NCBI GenBank assembly: GCA_947591495.1
Contig: CANQDG010000016.1
Location: 1-40,798, forward strand
Reading direction: 5' to 3'
Source: an uncultured Bacilli bacterium
GTDB taxonomy: Bacteria > Bacillota_I > Bacilli_A > ML615J-28 > CAG-313
DNA length: 40,798 nucleotides
The position numbers and the translations under genes are program-made. Positions 1,143 through 20,732 of the stretch are shown one piece after another. Below the pieces are notes generated by a model. The model was not told the origin of the DNA. It did no database searches and saw only the letters and a program-made list of their open reading frames with translations. Within the stretch, counting starts at the first letter, position 1, and each line of letters begins with the position of its first letter.

Positions 1143-2528
1143 TTACTCTAAACTTACATTATCATTTAAACTATCACTAATGGCCGTTTTTAATTCTTCT
1201 TTACGAGCTAACAAATCATTTTTGAATTTGTCAATTTCGGTTTGATATTTTTCTTCAAACTTGTTTAATAGTGATGTTTTATATTCATTAATTTTAGCTT
1301 CGGTATCTTTTAAAGTATTAAAAGTAATTGTTGCTATTTCTTTTGGTAATTGAGCTTTAATGCTTTCCATTGTTGTAAGAGTTGTTGTGAAAAGAGTTTC
1401 AACATTTTGATATATCTCATCAGCGATTATCTTTTTACTTTCAAGTGCCGCTTTTTTAATGTTATATTCTACTTCTAATTTTTGAAGAGCAAGTCTACTT
1501 GCTTCTTTTTCAAGAACTGTTACATTTTCATCATCAATAACCTTATTAAGTCTAACTTTTTCTTTTAGATAATTTTCTTTATATGTATAAAAAACTTGTA
1601 ATTCTTGTTGATAATCACTATCCGGATTAATAAAGTTTTGATAATAAGCATCTTGCATTTTATTATAAGCATCGCTTAGCGCATCATATGCGAAATTATA
1701 TTGTTCAATTAATAGTTGATAAATGCTATCAAGGGTCTTGGTGGCATCTTTAATAGCTTCTAGTTCGGTAAAACGAATTTCATTATTTTTGAAGTTTTGA
1801 TACATTTTTTCTAATTCAACGCTCGCAAAACTTACAACATCTAAATGATATAATCTAATTACATTAACTAAAGCACTATAATCCATCTTTTCGATTTGTT
1901 CATCGGTATAAGTCTTATCAAGATCTTTAACTAAAGCTCTTAATTCTTCTAAAGTATAACCTTTAACTTCTTCAACTGTAACATTTAAAGTTTCTTTAAA
2001 GGTATTAACAGCATCATTTGCTAGAGCATGAAGCGACTCTTCGATTTTTGATGTTTCAGCACTAATAGTAATCGTAATTTTGTTTTCTGAACTATCTACA
2101 ACTAAATAACCTAATTCTGTTTCAATCCTAATGATTTCTTTGATTGCTTGATCAAGATCAAGGTTTTGTAATTCTTCATCACAAATGATCATTTTACCTT
2201 CATCATTTAAACCTCGAAGTGATACAACTTTATTATTCTCATCAACAACCATTTCAATACTTGGATTTGTATCAAGTTGCACAATTGAATAATTTTTCGC
2301 AACCTTTTTACCATTTAAGTTAATAAGGGCAACAGTGCCAATAACTAAAGCAATGACTAAACAAAAACTTAAAGCTAAAATTGAAACAAGGCGCTTATTT
2401 GTTCTTTTTGGAGATACAACATTAATCGCATTTTCTTGTGTAACTCGCTCGTATAAATCATCTTGTGGATTTGGGTCTGGTAGCTTTGTTTTTAAATCTT
2501 TTTTTAATTGTCTTTCATATTTTGACAT
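1143..2528 (-). CDS. membrane anti-sigma factor with RsgI-like extracellular domain
   Basis: The 461-residue protein has a short cytoplasmic N-terminus (1-46), one membrane span (about 48-70), and an extracellular segment with the RsgI-family signature SIVQLDTNPSIEMVVDENNK at 81-100. The Asn-Pro pair at 88-89 is where RsgI proteins are known to self-cleave. A long Lys/Glu-rich, probably coiled-coil region (about 250-461) follows instead of the carbohydrate-binding modules of clostridial RsgI. It lies one base after the ECF sigma gene and is almost certainly its anti-sigma partner, translated in tandem. By analogy with RsgI the outer domain would sense an envelope signal and release the sigma factor by regulated proteolysis. 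The signal and the C-terminal role are unknown. Confidence 0.75.
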   Translation of the reverse strand: MSKYERQLKKDLKTKLPDPNPQDDLYERVTQENAINVVSPKRTNKRLVSILALSFCLVIALVIGTVALINLNGKKVAKNYSIVQLDTNPSIEMVVDENNKVVSLRGLNDEGKMIICDEELQNLDLDQAIKEIIRIETELGYLVVDSSENKITITISAETSKIEESLHALANDAVNTFKETLNVTVEEVKGYTLEELRALVKDLDKTYTDEQIEKMDYSALVNVIRLYHLDVVSFASVELEKMYQNFKNNEIRFTELEAIKDATKTLDSIYQLLIEQYNFAYDALSDAYNKMQDAYYQNFINPDSDYQQELQVFYTYKENYLKEKVRLNKVIDDENVTVLEKEASRLALQKLEVEYNIKKAALESKKIIADEIYQNVETLFTTTLTTMESIKAQLPKEIATITFNTLKDTEAKINEYKTSLLNKFEEKYQTEIDKFKNDLLARKEELKTAISDSLNDNVSLE

Positions 2529-2529
2529 T

Positions 2530-3036
2530 CTAATACACCTTCCTTATCTTTTCTAATCCATCATAATAAAGTCCTTGAACTTTACCGATTGTCATATTTA
2601 ATATTTGGGCAATTTCTTTAAACTTGTAATTGTAAATTATTCGAAGCGTCATTATACTTCTTTCATCCATGTCTAGAACTTCTTCAAAAAGTATTATTAA
2701 ATCTTTTGATGAATTGTTAGAGCTTTTAATAGTTTGAATTAATTCTTCATCATTAACGACATCTTTAGCTTTGTTACGCGTAACATAATTACATGCGGCA
2801 TTTCTCGTTATCATACAAACCCATTCTTTAAACTTTCCTTGTTCTTGATAGTTAGCAATTGAGGCTAAAATCTTCATAAAAACTTCGCTTACAATATCTT
2901 CACTATCTTCTTTATTATAAGTATAAGAATAGGCGATGTGATAAATTAATTTAACATAACTATTGTATAATTTAGCAAAAGCATCTTCATCTTTGTTTTT
3001 TAATTTATCGATAAAATCTTTTGTAATTTCTAGCAT
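2530..3036 (-). CDS. ECF-type RNA polymerase sigma factor
   Basis: The product (168 residues from the chosen start) has sigma region 2 (about LYNSYVKLIYHIAYSYTYNK to FKEWVCMITRNAACNYV) and region 4 (DERSIMTLRIIYNYKFKEIA and the helix that follows), with no region 3, which defines an ECF sigma factor. It directs transcription of a small regulon under control of the membrane protein encoded next. An in-frame ATG 11 codons upstream (3069) is possible. However, the extra stretch overlaps a TATAAT at 3061-3066 and has its ribosome site only 3 bases away, whereas the ATG at 3036 has AGAAAGG 11 bases upstream. I therefore prefer 3036. The regulon, and whether the gene controls itself, cannot be read from this window. 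Confidence 0.85.
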   Translation of the reverse strand: MLEITKDFIDKLKNKDEDAFAKLYNSYVKLIYHIAYSYTYNKEDSEDIVSEVFMKILASIANYQEQGKFKEWVCMITRNAACNYVTRNKAKDVVNDEELIQTIKSSNNSSKDLIILFEEVLDMDERSIMTLRIIYNYKFKEIAQILNMTIGKVQGLYYDGLEKIRKVY

Positions 3037-3114
3037 ATTTTTAGGTACCTTTCTTTTTACATTATACATAACACCAAAAAGGCTTTTTTTATTCTAAAAT
3101 TTTGATTTTTTTTA

Positions 3115-7973: not shown

Positions 7974-8198
7974 TTAACTATTTAAATACTTAATCATGCC
8001 ATTAATAAAATCAATTTGTTTTTTTAGATTGGCAATTTTATCTGATGATGTCATTTTTAAATTAGTTTTAACTTCTTTTTCAAAATCATTAAATAGTAGG
8101 GGATCTTGATTTAAGTAAATATACCATTTAGGATTATAACGTAAATAATTAGTATATATATCATTAGCATATATTTTATCTAAAACGTATTTAACCAT
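7974..8198 (-). CDS. ylbE: YlbE-like small protein
   Basis: The 74-residue product resembles B. subtilis YlbE: the central LRYNPKWYIYLNQDPLLFND followed by a Lys-rich stretch and a hydrophobic C-terminal helix match the family pattern. The function is unknown. The ATG at 8198 shares one base with the stop of ylbD (TAATG) and has GGTGGG upstream. A longer TTG start at 8210 is possible but overlaps that ribosome site. Pairing with ylbD is the same as in Bacillus and supports both calls. Confidence 0.7.
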   Translation of the reverse strand: MVKYVLDKIYANDIYTNYLRYNPKWYIYLNQDPLLFNDFEKEVKTNLKMTSSDKIANLKKQIDFINGMIKYLNS

Positions 8199-8569
8199 TA
8201 ATCCCACCAACTATTATAATTATTATTGTAAATGCCCGTTGGTCTACCACCAAAACTTTGGGTTATTTGTAAGACCTTTTGAATGGTGTTAAGGGTTTTA
8301 CTAATTGAATCGGGATCAATTTTTTTGATATAATTAATGACATTTTTAACACTTGTTTGAGATAACAATTCTTCAATTGTATTAGATTTTGGTTTATCCT
8401 TATTAGTATTAGTCGAAGTTTGATATTTGGTCCACATTTGATCATTTTCCCCTAAAATAACCCAATTTTCATAAACTTTTTGCCACGTATAAGTTCCATT
8501 TAAAACATCATCTTTAATGCCAGGATATCGCGAAATAAACTCACGGAATTCATTCATTCTACTTGCCAT
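8198..8569 (-). CDS. ylbD: YlbD-family protein (putative spore coat protein family)
   Basis: The 123-residue protein matches the YlbD family. An N-terminal segment (FREFISRYPGIKDDVLNGTY then TWQKVYENWVILGENDQMW) corresponds to the conserved block of YlbD. It is followed by a charged linker, a helical stretch (about 70-100) and a low-complexity tail ending NNNYNSWWD. B. subtilis YlbD is annotated as a putative coat protein, but the family's function is not settled. GAGGAAG lies five bases before the ATG. It forms a two-gene unit with ylbE. Confidence 0.75.
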   Translation of the reverse strand: MASRMNEFREFISRYPGIKDDVLNGTYTWQKVYENWVILGENDQMWTKYQTSTNTNKDKPKSNTIEELLSQTSVKNVINYIKKIDPDSISKTLNTIQKVLQITQSFGGRPTGIYNNNYNSWWD

Positions 8570-8664: not shown

Positions 8665-8910
8665 ATGTTTCAATTCTTAAAGAAAAACAGTCAAAGAAAT
8701 AACGGGTATAACAACTTCTATCCCGCACCTTATCCAAATCAATATATGAATAATTATATGCCTAATCAAGCTAACCCTTATGATGTATCAATGATGGATA
8801 CCCAAATCAATGAACTAAAAAGAGAGATTAATGATTTATATCAAAGAGTTAATCGGCTTGAAGCCTTTTTAGGAGTTAGAGATAATCCAACTAATGTAAA
8901 TCCTTCATAA
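8665..8910 (+). CDS. small Asn/Tyr/Pro-rich protein with C-terminal coiled coil
   Basis: This 81-residue protein is unrecognised. Residues 8-40 are rich in Asn, Tyr and Pro. Residues 44-70 (DTQINELKREINDLYQRVNR onwards) form a clear heptad-repeat helix, so it probably oligomerises. A good ribosome site, AAAGGAG, precedes the ATG. It is divergent from ylbD across 95 bases, and its last 20 bases overlap the end of the convergent UPF0223 gene. The composition and the company of ylbD would fit a coat-like small protein, but nothing in the sequence proves that. Confidence 0.7.
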   Translation: MFQFLKKNSQRNNGYNNFYPAPYPNQYMNNYMPNQANPYDVSMMDTQINELKREINDLYQRVNRLEAFLGVRDNPTNVNPS

Positions 8911-9778: not shown

Positions 9779-9823
9779 ATTTAGGCAAAAGAATTAACAT
9801 TCATCAAAGTTATGCATAGTATA
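9779..9823 (+). promoter_or_regulatory. possible sigma-K-type promoter with GerE-box-like site before the YjcZ-like gene
   Basis: AC at 9797-9798, a 16-base gap and CATAGTATA at 9815-9823 match the B. subtilis sigma-K pattern AC-N16/17-CATAnnnTA. ATTTAGGC at 9779-9786 matches the GerE core RWWTRGGY and would lie just upstream of the -35 region. No convincing sigma-A pair is present. Both motifs are short and could occur by chance; the call leans on the GerE homologue elsewhere in the window. Confidence 0.4.
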
Positions 9824-9859
9824 AAGTAGAAACAAATGTTTCAAAAAAGGAGGGAAATT

Positions 9860-10009
9860 ATGTATCAATCTAATTATGGATATAACTGCTGTGCCCAAAC
9901 TAATCCTTGTTGTAATAATGGCGGTTCCAATTCATTTGGCGGTTATGGCTATGCCTTAATTCTTGTCTTATTTATTTTATTAGTAATTATTGGTACTGCA
10001 CGTTGGTAA
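9860..10009 (+). CDS. YjcZ-like tiny transmembrane protein
   Basis: A 49-residue gene begins with ATG at 9860 behind a strong AGGAGG ribosome site. The product starts MYQSNYGYNCCAQTNPCC, continues through a Gly/Asn-rich stretch and ends in one membrane helix, YALILVLFILLVIIGTARW. The GYGYALILVLFILLVIIG block is the hallmark of the YjcZ-type 'tiny transmembrane' family of Bacilli, several members of which are expressed during sporulation in B. subtilis. The four cysteines in the N-terminal half are unusual. The gene stands alone with its own terminator. Confidence 0.8.
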   Translation: MYQSNYGYNCCAQTNPCCNNGGSNSFGGYGYALILVLFILLVIIGTARW

Positions 10010-10025
10010 GTAATTTACTACTTTC

Positions 10026-10052
10026 AAAAAGGTTCGAATGCGAACCTTTTTT
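10026..10052 (+). terminator. terminator of the YjcZ-like gene
   Basis: AAAAAGGTTCG (10026-10036) pairs perfectly with CGAACCTTTTT across the 4-base loop AATG, followed by T residues. Confidence 0.92.
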
Positions 10053-16542: not shown

Positions 16543-17634
16543 TTATATTTCGTTATTATTCATCGATTGAGTGACTAAATAATTTTTTAATTGCTCATCG
16601 GTTTTGTTTACTACATCTTGATATTTTTGCTTTTCTTGTTCTAATTTTTCTTGCGCTTTAAGGGATTCTTGATGAATATTTTTAAAGGAGATTGCGGAAA
16701 TGATCATATAAGATGCCGTTAATAAATTGATAACAATAGTAATCAATCCTAATAATACTACAAATTTAACCATATTAAACAATATGTTGATATATGTTTC
16801 AACCAATATATAATTACCATTATTGGCACTTGTTGCTTCTTTTAAAAGCGTTAGTATAAGTTCTTTAAATACATTAAATAAGCTTAATATAATAAATGTT
16901 CCTACAAGTTGCATTATAGCCAAAAAGATTATAATTCCACCAATCACAAATAATCTTACATATGGATATTGTTTAACTGGTTTATATTCACCTGTTTCAA
17001 TCGTGGTTGCTAGGGTGTCATAATATTGTTTTATTTTTTTCCAAGTAATAAAATAATTAACAATAAACGCAATACCTAAGCCACTTAATAAAATAAGCAT
17101 AATAATTAAGGTATAAAATATTAGCATTGACGAACCAATTATACTCCTATCCTCACTTACTATTAACTTCATAGAAGGGGCTAAAATAAGCAAGAATATT
17201 AAATATATAAATAATAAGATACTCATAAGAACAAGTCCTACAATTCCTATAATATAACTATAATTGTTAAAGTAATTAATTTTTTGAATTTGTTTCTTAT
17301 CAAGATCTTTTTTCTTTTTATACACATAAAGACCGCTAATACCACTGATTAAAGCAAAAACGGCGCCAAGAACGTTAACAACTAATTGTAAGATGCCTGA
17401 TGATGTAAATAAACTAAATATACCTGATAAAATATGAAAAGAACCTATTATTATCAAGATAATACTTATAGCCAAAAAATATTTACTCGTAAAAAAATTA
17501 GTTATAGTTTTTCTTACGCCATTTTGAGCTTCGTTTACAATTGTTTTTTGTTCTTCTTGTAAATATTGATAATGACATTTAGGGCAAAAAGACATATCAT
17601 CAGGGATGAATTCTCCACATTTTGGACAATACAT
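16543..17634 (-). CDS. zinc-ribbon multi-span membrane protein, third paralogue
   Basis: The 363-residue protein has a zinc ribbon (CPKCGEFIPDDMSFCPKC at 3-20), about six hydrophobic segments, and a C-terminal charged helix (about 325-355, with QEKLEQEKQKYQDVVNKTDE). The layout mirrors the 394-residue protein next door, but the sequence has diverged and lacks the Asn-rich end. The two genes are separately transcribed, each with its own promoter and terminator. Function unknown; the shared design suggests a membrane complex or redundant paralogues. Confidence 0.8.
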   Translation of the reverse strand: MYCPKCGEFIPDDMSFCPKCHYQYLQEEQKTIVNEAQNGVRKTITNFFTSKYFLAISIILIIIGSFHILSGIFSLFTSSGILQLVVNVLGAVFALISGISGLYVYKKKKDLDKKQIQKINYFNNYSYIIGIVGLVLMSILLFIYLIFLLILAPSMKLIVSEDRSIIGSSMLIFYTLIIMLILLSGLGIAFIVNYFITWKKIKQYYDTLATTIETGEYKPVKQYPYVRLFVIGGIIIFLAIMQLVGTFIILSLFNVFKELILTLLKEATSANNGNYILVETYINILFNMVKFVVLLGLITIVINLLTASYMIISAISFKNIHQESLKAQEKLEQEKQKYQDVVNKTDEQLKNYLVTQSMNNNEI

Positions 17635-17674
17635 TCTATCACTCCTTTATTTAGATTTTTTCTTTTACATATGT

Positions 17675-17703
17675 ATTATATTATTTTTTTATCTTTTTTT
17701 CAA
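17675..17703 (-). promoter_or_regulatory. sigma-A promoter of the 363-residue zinc-ribbon gene
   Basis: On the minus strand TTGAAA (17698-17703) and TATAAT (17675-17680) are 17 bases apart. AAAGGAG precedes the ATG. Confidence 0.85.
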
Positions 17704-17730
17704 CCCTTTTTAATAAAAATGTTTAAAAAA

Positions 17731-17770
17731 GAAAAAAATCATATTGAAATTAAGCTCAATATGATTTTTT
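17731..17770 (-). terminator. terminator of the gerE-kapD unit
   Basis: AAAAAATCATATTGA (17732-17746) pairs perfectly with TCAATATGATTTTTT (17756-17770) over a 9-base loop, with a T tail on the minus strand right after the exonuclease stop codon. Confidence 0.9.
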
Positions 17771-17773
17771 ATT

Positions 17774-18640
17774 TTAATTTGTATCTTTATTTAATTCTTT
17801 TTGGAATAATTTAAAAATTTCTGATGTTGCAATAGCATCATTTAAAGCATTATGATCTTGTTTATTGATGGGAGTTGTATTAAAAAGCTCATAGGCATTG
17901 AAAAGCCCAATGTCTGTTTTAATCCCAAAATAGTTTTTCATAACTTGCATTAGATTAACAAATTTTTTTCGTTCAACTAATGGCTTTAAATTATTCATTT
18001 GATAAAAGGAATCAAGCATTATGATATCATTTCTTCCCCAGACATAGATAGTTGGTTGATAATACGTAATAATATCTTTTAATTTATTGTAAAACTTATA
18101 GCATGATGGAGCATTTTTGATTTTATCCATCGTTGTTTTTAAGAATTCGGTCGTTCTTGTGTTAATTCCAATTTGCATTTTTGGTTTAACCATATCCCAT
18201 TCGGTGGTAATAATTTGACCTTCTTCATCTTCTAAACAAAAACCATATTGGATAATTTCGGAAACAAAACCACTACCATGAGTATAACCATGGGGTGGCA
18301 TTGTAAACTCTAAATCTAAAAACATCCGATAACCATCACGATTAATGATTTTTTTTACACCTTGCTTGATGGTTGATAAATCATAATAAACAATGGTTTT
18401 TCTTGGCATATGCCGAACCATTTTAATAAAACTTATTACCTCATAAACACTATAACCAGCTTGATGAATTTTATCATCTTTACAAGTGAAATGAACGACT
18501 AAGCCTTCACTTAAGTATGGTTTAAATTTTTTATATTGACTTCTAGTTAGATAAAATTTTTGAACCTTTCGATCTAAAAGTATTTCAAAGATCCGTGTTT
18601 CGTCTTCAAAAAAACGAATTGTACCATAGACTAGTCGCAT
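17774..18640 (-). CDS. kapD: KapD-like DEDDh 3'-5' exonuclease with N-terminal extension
   Basis: The 288-residue protein has a complete DEDDh nuclease site: Asp109 and Glu111 in FLDLEFTMPP, Asp205 in WGRNDIIMLD, and His263/Asp268 in HNALNDA. The LEFTMP string and domain length (about 105-285) fit the KapD branch of the family. B. subtilis KapD is a predicted 3'-5' exonuclease first described as an inhibitor of the KinA sporulation pathway and later linked to the spore crust; I recall this and did not check it. Residues 1-100 are an extra beta-rich, OB-like domain absent from Bacillus KapD, possibly for RNA binding. It lies 23 bases after the GerE homologue and is probably cotranscribed with it. 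A general RNase role remains possible. Confidence 0.75.
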   Translation of the reverse strand: MRLVYGTIRFFEDETRIFEILLDRKVQKFYLTRSQYKKFKPYLSEGLVVHFTCKDDKIHQAGYSVYEVISFIKMVRHMPRKTIVYYDLSTIKQGVKKIINRDGYRMFLDLEFTMPPHGYTHGSGFVSEIIQYGFCLEDEEGQIITTEWDMVKPKMQIGINTRTTEFLKTTMDKIKNAPSCYKFYNKLKDIITYYQPTIYVWGRNDIIMLDSFYQMNNLKPLVERKKFVNLMQVMKNYFGIKTDIGLFNAYELFNTTPINKQDHNALNDAIATSEIFKLFQKELNKDTN

Positions 18641-18663: not shown

Positions 18664-18885
18664 TTATAATTTGATTTCTTTCATTTTGATTAGTTCTAAG
18701 ATTGCTTGGCTCCTACCTTTAACTCCTAACTTTTGAATGACATTTGAGATATGATTACGCACGGTTTTACTACTGATATTAAGTTTTGTTGCGATTTCTT
18801 CAGTATCATAATTAGCAATTAATAATTCAAAAATTTGGTGTTCTCTCATTGTTAAAAATTTCTTTATTGGCACTTTTTTTCCCAC
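18664..18885 (-). CDS. gerE: GerE homologue, LuxR-type DNA-binding regulator
   Basis: The 73-residue protein is a bare LuxR/GerE helix-turn-helix domain. It matches my recollection of the 74-residue B. subtilis GerE almost end to end, including KTVRNHISN, QKLGVKGRSQA and a closing EL..ME-like segment (roughly 60% identity by eye). GerE is the last regulator of the mother-cell sporulation cascade and controls late coat genes with sigma-K. Synteny supports the call: gerE also lies near uvrC in Bacillus. The start is GTG at 18885, chosen because it reproduces the GerE length; the ribosome site is weak and a GTG at 18873 is possible. An orphan LuxR regulator of other function is the alternative. 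Confidence 0.8.
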   Translation of the reverse strand: MGKKVPIKKFLTMREHQIFELLIANYDTEEIATKLNISSKTVRNHISNVIQKLGVKGRSQAILELIKMKEIKL

Positions 18886-18896
18886 ACTTTCACAAG

Positions 18897-18924
18897 TATA
18901 TTATGCCAAAAATAAATGAGAGGT
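18897..18924 (-). promoter_or_regulatory. possible sigma-K-type promoter of gerE-kapD
   Basis: On the minus strand AC (18924-18923), a 17-base gap and CATAATATA (18905-18897) match AC-N17-CATAnnnTA, the sigma-K consensus. It sits in the 44-base gap between uvrC and gerE. In B. subtilis gerE is transcribed by sigma-K. The predicted start would lie only about 5 bases before the GTG, so either the leader is very short or the GTG at 18873 is used. Confidence 0.5.
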
Positions 18925-18929
18925 TACTT

Positions 18930-20732
18930 TTATAAATTAAGTTTTGTTAAAAGATTATTAGCAACATCTTTAGGAAATCCAAGAGCTTTTAATTTTTCAA
19001 CTGAGGTATTTTTAATGTCTTCGATTGTTTCGAAATTATCTAGAAGAATCTTTTTACGCATTTTTCCGATGCCTTCGATTTCATCTAAAATGGAGGTTAA
19101 ACTATTTTTGGTATGCGTCTTTTGAAAGAAGGTAATCGCAAAGCGATGAACTTCATCTTGCATAGCCTCTAATAACAAAAATAAATCACTTTTTTTATCA
19201 ATCAAAATTTCTTCAAATTTACTATTCATTAAAGCTCTTGTTTTATGGCGATCATCTTTTAAAAGTCCCATTAAATTAATTTGATCATCAATTTTTAATT
19301 TTTGTAAAACGGTTAAAGCGGCTTTAATTTGGGTTTTACCACCATCGACAATAATTAAAGAAGGAAGTTTTTCTTCTTCTAAAAGTAAGCGTTTATAACG
19401 TCTTTCAATAACTTCCATCATTGTATGATAATCATCAGGTCCAACAACCGTTTTAACTTTATATTTACGATATTCTTTAGGGACGGGTTTGCCATCAACA
19501 TATTTAACCATCGCACTGACAGGACTTGCTCCTTGAATATTAGAATTATCAAATAATTCAATGGTTTTAGGATAATCAATTTTTAAAAGTTTAGCAAGTT
19601 CTTCTAATGGTTTAGTCGTTTTAGACATTTCTAAAAGACGCATTTTTTGTAAATTATTAATATTGTTTTTAGCATTTTCCATTACATTTTCGAGAAGTTG
19701 TTTTTTGATACCTTTAACAGGAATTGTAACTTTAACATCTAAGAGTTCTTCTAAAATTGATGATTCTTCTAAATAAGGAATAATAATTTCTTTGGGTAAA
19801 ATATTAAAACCTAAATCATAAAATTGATATATATATGAAAGGACCGCATCATCAATATTACCAACTAAATCAAAGATTTCGCCATTTCTTTCAATGATTT
19901 TGCCAAGGCGCATATGTAAAACTTGAATTGAAATCATGCCATCTTTTTGGAAATAGCCAAAAATATCACGGGGAATATTATCATTTAATTCCATTGTTTG
20001 TTTTTCGACAATCGTATTAATGGAACTTAATAGATCCCGATATTCAATGGCCTCTTCAAAACGCAAATCATTTGAGGCTTTTTCCATTAACATGTTTATT
20101 CGTTCAATCGTATCTGCGGTATTGCCATTTAAAAACTTGACCACACTTTTGATACTTTCTTCATAATCAGCCTTTTGAAGATGATTTTCACATGGAGCAA
20201 GACATTGACCTAAATGTGCATATAGACATTTTTTATTAGGAATATGACTACATTTTCTAAAGGGATATGTTTTATTTAAAATTTCAACAATATCTTTACA
20301 TGCTTTAGCATTAGGATAAGGGCCAAAAACATATTTATTTTTTTTCTTGAATTCTTTTTTGATATCTCTTGTATAAAGAAGACGCGGATTTTCTTCATTA
20401 GTTAATATAATATATGGATAAGTTTTATCATCCATTAATAAGATGTTATATTTAGGACGATTCTTTTTGATGAAATTAGATTCTAATAAGAAAGCTTCTA
20501 GTTCCGAATGCGTAATGATATATTCAAAATTAACAACATCTTCTAACATTCTAGTTGTTTTCGCATCATGGCTACCAGTAAAATAACTTTTTAAACGATT
20601 TTGTAAGATTTTAGCCTTACCAACATAAATGATTTGACCATCTTTGTTATACATTTGATAGCAACCAGGTTTTTTTGGTACTAATGATAATTTGGTTTTA
20701 ATTTTATCTAATACTTCTTTTTCTTGACTCAT
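18930..20732 (-). CDS. uvrC: excinuclease ABC subunit C
   Basis: UvrC makes both incisions in nucleotide excision repair with UvrB. The 600-residue protein has the GIY-YIG nuclease domain at the start (PGCYQMYNKDGQIIYVGKAK), a cysteine-bearing linker, the UVR helix that binds UvrB (about 200-235), the RNase H-like C-terminal nuclease (ASPVSAMVKYVDGKP, LIIVDGGKTQIKAAL) and two helix-hairpin-helix units at the end (IEGIGKMRKKILLDNF). It follows rbfA by 41 bases at the end of the nusA-infB cluster; attachment of uvrC to this cluster is less common than its other members. Confidence 0.97.
   Translation of the reverse strand: MSQEKEVLDKIKTKLSLVPKKPGCYQMYNKDGQIIYVGKAKILQNRLKSYFTGSHDAKTTRMLEDVVNFEYIITHSELEAFLLESNFIKKNRPKYNILLMDDKTYPYIILTNEENPRLLYTRDIKKEFKKKNKYVFGPYPNAKACKDIVEILNKTYPFRKCSHIPNKKCLYAHLGQCLAPCENHLQKADYEESIKSVVKFLNGNTADTIERINMLMEKASNDLRFEEAIEYRDLLSSINTIVEKQTMELNDNIPRDIFGYFQKDGMISIQVLHMRLGKIIERNGEIFDLVGNIDDAVLSYIYQFYDLGFNILPKEIIIPYLEESSILEELLDVKVTIPVKGIKKQLLENVMENAKNNINNLQKMRLLEMSKTTKPLEELAKLLKIDYPKTIELFDNSNIQGASPVSAMVKYVDGKPVPKEYRKYKVKTVVGPDDYHTMMEVIERRYKRLLLEEEKLPSLIIVDGGKTQIKAALTVLQKLKIDDQINLMGLLKDDRHKTRALMNSKFEEILIDKKSDLFLLLEAMQDEVHRFAITFFQKTHTKNSLTSILDEIEGIGKMRKKILLDNFETIEDIKNTSVEKLKALGFPKDVANNLLTKLNL

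Follow-up and report, generated by a model that had tools for sequence, protein, structure and literature searches.

In the mother cell of Bacillus subtilis, a second coherent feed-forward loop has been described in which sigma-K makes GerE and both proteins activate terminal coat genes, and yjcZ belongs to the sigma-K regulon of this species, where it was placed on a list from which genes with strong GerE dependence are left out (PMC517825). The exosporium promoters of Bacillus thuringiensis are of SigK type, with 16-nt spacing and a CATAnnnTA-type -10 element, and several of them carry GerE footprints (PMC4750369). Here we analyzed a stretch of 40,798 nt (the window), which is contig 16 of an uncultured Bacilli bacterium's assembly (1.51 Mb, 95% complete) and in which a yjcZ-family gene lies behind a predicted GerE box and a sigma-K-type promoter. 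We consider it very probable, judging from sequence, that this gene is a late mother-cell sporulation gene under sigma-K and GerE activation and that a feed-forward loop of the B. subtilis type has been retained.

Table 1 Features of the yjcZ and gerE loci in the window.
Feature	Position	Strand	Basis
YlbD-type coat protein gene	8198-8569		window
GerE-type box ATTTAGGC (RWWTRGGY; predicted)	9779..9786	+	sequence; kept as WWTRGGY in family upstreams
Sigma-K-type -35 (AC)	9797..9798	+	sequence; 10 nt after box, 16 nt before -10
Sigma-K/E-type -10 CATAGTATA (CATAnnnTA)	9815..9823	+	sequence; conserved across orthologues
Ribosome-binding site AGGAGG	9848..9853	+	sequence; AAGGAGGG around 9847-9854
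yjcZ-family gene, 49 codons	9860..10009	+	ATG 9860, stop at 10009; Cys-rich N-terminal head, C-terminal membrane helix
Intrinsic terminator of yjcZ	10026..10051	+	11 pairs, -12.7 kcal/mol, z -3.8
gerE homologue, presumed regulator	18664..18885	-	best PDB match 1fse GerE; adjoins uvrC-like ORF
Sigma-K-type promoter of gerE, AC-N17-CATAATATA (predicted)	18897..18924	-	sequence; orthologous loci

The preliminary description of this locus had read it as a tiny membrane-protein gene with AGGAGG and a terminator, preceded by AC-N16-CATAnnnTA and, 10 bases earlier, by an RWWTRGGY octamer, and all of these elements were found in place. The 49-residue product scored above cut-off against both TIGR01732 (37.3 bits, cut-off 21.35) and PF09680 (33 bits, cut-off 21), two profiles that its C-terminal helix YGYALILVLFILLVIIG fits, and it therefore belongs to the YjcZ family. 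A longer 57-aa ORF starting at 9836 was disfavored because M1 of the 49-residue form was conserved in a nine-way alignment of orthologues. Compared with the family profiles, the Cys-rich head (MYQxNYGYxCC) and the C-terminal TARW are lineage-specific; a second paralogue of 29 aa with a minimal head is a further difference. The product, anchored by its C-terminal helix, presumably resides in the membrane of the mother cell, in that around the outside of the forespore, or in the coat. In the vicinity, an 81-aa Asn/Tyr/Pro-rich coiled-coil ORF (8665-8910, + strand) is divergent from the ylbD coat gene, and in g4 genomes yjcZ is preceded closely by the end of an ORF with a comparable C-terminal coiled coil, the stop codon of which overlaps the GerE box. 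Genomes of genus g6 carry extra yjcZ copies (five loci) with the start broken or missing, within about 2-16 kb of an intact yjcZ copy, one set lying behind the inverted repeat CATAGGGGCTA...TAGCCCCTAT.

The region upstream of yjcZ reads ATTTAGGC-N10-AC-N16-CATAGTATA (9779-9823), an exact match to a sigma-K-type promoter (AC, 16-17 nt, CATAnnnTA) at 9797-9823, from which transcription by sigma-K is predicted. Strict matches to this promoter type occurred three times in the whole window: upstream of yjcZ, upstream of gerE, and once antisense within a gene. The octamer by itself is weak evidence, since RWWTRGGY had 52 matches on both strands of the window (roughly 3% per 50 bp), in agreement with the several-percent chance of random occurrence estimated beforehand. 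The earlier statement that no sigma-A pair is visible was nearly right: one 9/12 sigma-70-like match (TTAACA-17-TAGTAT, 9794-9822) overlaps the promoter, but such matches stood at chance level around it (3 found, 3.0 expected). The longer GerE consensus, RWWTRGGYNNYY, includes a YY that is missing at the yjcZ box.

Beside a uvrC-like ORF (18930-20732, recognized by eye), the window encodes a GerE homologue of about 73 aa, full length and consisting of an HTH without a receiver domain. B. subtilis GerE (1fse) was its best solved match (E 7.3e-22; 41/70 identical over residues 4-73 of 73), with 22/27 residues identical over the recognition-helix stretch. The homologue may bind RWWTRGGY sites. 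Directly upstream of the gerE loci of the order, AC-N16/17-CATAnnnTA was exact in 21/24 and had one mismatch in the other 3, and a GerE-type box was not found at these gerE promoters.

The genome encodes Spo0A (246 bits, cut-off 200), SigK (291 bits against 252 for PRK05803, but under the TIGR02846 cut-off, 283 against 299), SigE and SigG (best matches, though below their own equivalog cut-offs), SpoIIAA/AB and SspI, giving the Spo0A, sporulation sigma factors and SASP of a sporulation-competent genome, with SigF shortened. An order of two families in which sporulation has been lost in part fits the published description of ML615J-28 (PMC10868615). SigF, in three species belonging to the genus of the window, measures only about 82-104 aa (17575-17877, - strand, of contig C14 in genome G000), corresponds to the sigma-2 region and sits in a spoIIAA-spoIIAB-sigF-spoVAC operon that in G000 leaves no room for sigma-4 upstream of spoVAC; SigF spans 172-177 aa in congeners and 194-230 aa in other genera. 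The shrinking of SigF to its sigma-2 domain while retained in an intact operon merits separate study. Elsewhere in the window (1143-3069, - strand), an ECF sigma factor gene (TIGR02937) is followed by a gene for a 461-aa membrane protein whose N-terminal half is RsgI-like by eye and which had no family match.

Comparison of orthologous upstream regions showed that both motifs are conserved at a fixed spacing. Every readable yjcZ upstream in 15 family genomes (26/26, covering two paralogues and six genera) carried WWTRGGY-N28/29-CATAnnnTA with 0-1 mismatch, a count drawn from related genomes and hence from non-independent samples. In 400 shuffles, zero-mismatch composites were never reached, and the other family upstreams gave P values of 0.003-0.02. 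The orthologues initially found in a public collection had the same upstream arrangement, and the composite was also present at the yjcZ paralogue of the window's own genome, which a contig end truncates. In the order's second family, the composite was exact at seven loci, had one mismatch at three and was absent at one. Outside the order, two Haloplasma-type yjcZ arrays each contained one zero-mismatch copy; a Paenibacillus candidate was discarded as a spurious protein match. The C of the -35 was kept in 27/33 composites and AC at N16 in 16/33. We regard the -35 of yjcZ as degenerate because exact AC at N16 occurred in only 9/25 non-redundant yjcZ promoters, with 3 more at N17.

Genome-wide scans, each controlled with the reversed pattern, placed the same composite upstream of other coat-like genes. 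The relaxed pattern WWTRGGYN{28,29}CATANNNTA had 9 matches in the 1.5-Mb own genome against 1 for the control, and the strict pattern WWTRGGYN{10,11}ACN16CATANNNTA had 3 against 0. Across the order, the relaxed pattern gave 116 matches against 49 in GerE-positive genomes and 43 against 36 in GerE-negative ones (Fisher P 0.011), and because of this noise we relied on the strict form. In the 15 family genomes the latter yielded 14 matches against 1, of which 12 lay directly upstream of yjcZ (both paralogues), CotY/Z-like genes (PF10612 scores of 22-24 bits, slightly short of its cut-off, 24) or LysM genes; one of the remaining two lay upstream of a cysE-cysK operon and the other, antisense within a cas9-like gene, was treated as chance. 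Further targets of the composite were CotJB (PF12652, 40.9 bits) and a collagen-like protein gene recognized by its Gly-X-Y repeats. The cysE-cysK match (G000:C18:20386-20430) was found only in this genome, and the first gene of the operon is seemingly without an ATG after AGGAGGAG; the operon could provide cysteine for Cys-rich coat proteins. Another own-genome match, upstream of a second cysK (C3:78417), was left uncounted, its box lying inside a terminator-like hairpin.

A class-wide strict scan of 395 genomes gave 23 matches against 3 controls in a distant family, f11, and 28 against 26 in the other families outside the order. Among 16 inspected f11 matches, with target genes recognized by eye rather than by profile, 8 were upstream of gerE (seven called by script, one by eye from its first codons), 3 upstream of CotY/Z-like genes, 1 upstream of a CotJB-like gene and 1 upstream of a 26-aa YjcZ-like frame. 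The pattern was settled before f11 was scanned, which makes this family, at the level of predicted sites, an independent validation of the composite. The composite upstream of gerE itself suggests GerE autoregulation in f11, in contrast to the order of the window, whose gerE promoters lack the box.

YjcZ and GerE were present in exactly the same 24/43 genomes of the order, a comparison in which GerE presence is confounded with overall sporulation loss. Within genus g20, two genomes had both and two had neither, and in many of the 24 genomes the two genes lie on one contig, a few kb apart.

It is scarcely credible that the motif match reflects chance or no more than common descent of a short intergenic stretch. 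By itself the octamer is frequent, as counted above, and congeneric upstreams are related, but the same geometry recurred upstream of unrelated genes, in another family of the order and in a remote family, and in unrelated upstream contexts such as genus g4, in which yjcZ follows another gene, while the control patterns were almost empty. That sigma-E reads the yjcZ promoter and the box serves another mother-cell regulator stays in play because sigma-E and sigma-K share a similar -10 element, and SigE is encoded in the genome. We nevertheless give this little probability: the -35 C was kept as for sigma-K, the box geometry was common to genes for CotY/Z-like, CotJB and collagen-like proteins and, in f11, to gerE, and box and GerE track each other.

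The sign of GerE action is a finer question. With the same promoter, GerE might chiefly repress yjcZ at a late stage, as it does about half of the sigma-K regulon in B. subtilis. There GerE has both activating and repressing effects on sigma-K genes, and yjcZ is not among the genes listed as strongly GerE-dependent (PMC517825). We hold this unlikely, though the f11 box upstream of gerE itself allows either sign. Rather than covering the start or the -10, the box is located 5' to the -35, and the -35 is often degenerate with a box and near-perfect at the box-less gerE promoters, as expected for activator dependence. Activation is thus the likely sign, given a box at a class II position and a -35 looser with the box than at gerE.

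The proposal that yjcZ is a direct GerE/sigma-K target accordingly gained support from both conservation and genome scans, although GerE binding and sigma-K use at its promoter are inferred. Under sigma-K and GerE activation, sigma-K RNA polymerase would read the AC-N16-CATAnnnTA promoter, and the GerE homologue, whose gene lies at a distance of 8.7 kb, would bind ATTTAGGC just 5' of the -35, near position -46 relative to the expected start, activating like a class II activator that touches region 4 of sigma. Transcription of gerE from a sigma-K-type promoter without a box would mean that sigma-K makes GerE first, after which sigma-K AND GerE would turn on yjcZ along with coat genes such as the CotY/Z-like ones; gerE and yjcZ would therefore form the second coherent feed-forward loop known from B. 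subtilis. As in B. subtilis, gerE lies behind a predicted sigma-K promoter, with coat-type genes and yjcZ as putative targets. The box-to-minus-10 spacing here is a rigid 28/29 nt across genes and genera. In this lineage yjcZ carries a box, whereas the B. subtilis gene is sigma-K-assigned without strong GerE dependence (PMC517825), so the GerE dependence of yjcZ may differ between the two. The 16-nt spacing and CATAnnnTA-type -10 of the B. thuringiensis exosporium promoters recur here, but exsY is independent of GerE in that species, whereas CotY/Z-like genes here have the box (PMC4750369).

These results suggest that small-genome uncultured gut Bacilli, whose sporulation has been doubted, retain a working-looking terminal mother-cell circuit. 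YjcZ, a family of unknown function, is tied to GerE through perfect co-occurrence in 43 genomes, and the 45-bp signature, with nearly no background, predicts GerE targets without culture. We give even credence to the broader idea that the rigid module of GerE box and sigma-K promoter is an ancestral device of the whole class with GerE locked to one position and YjcZ gained and lost with GerE; if true, the full terminal coat regulon in uncultured gut Bacilli would be readable from sequence.
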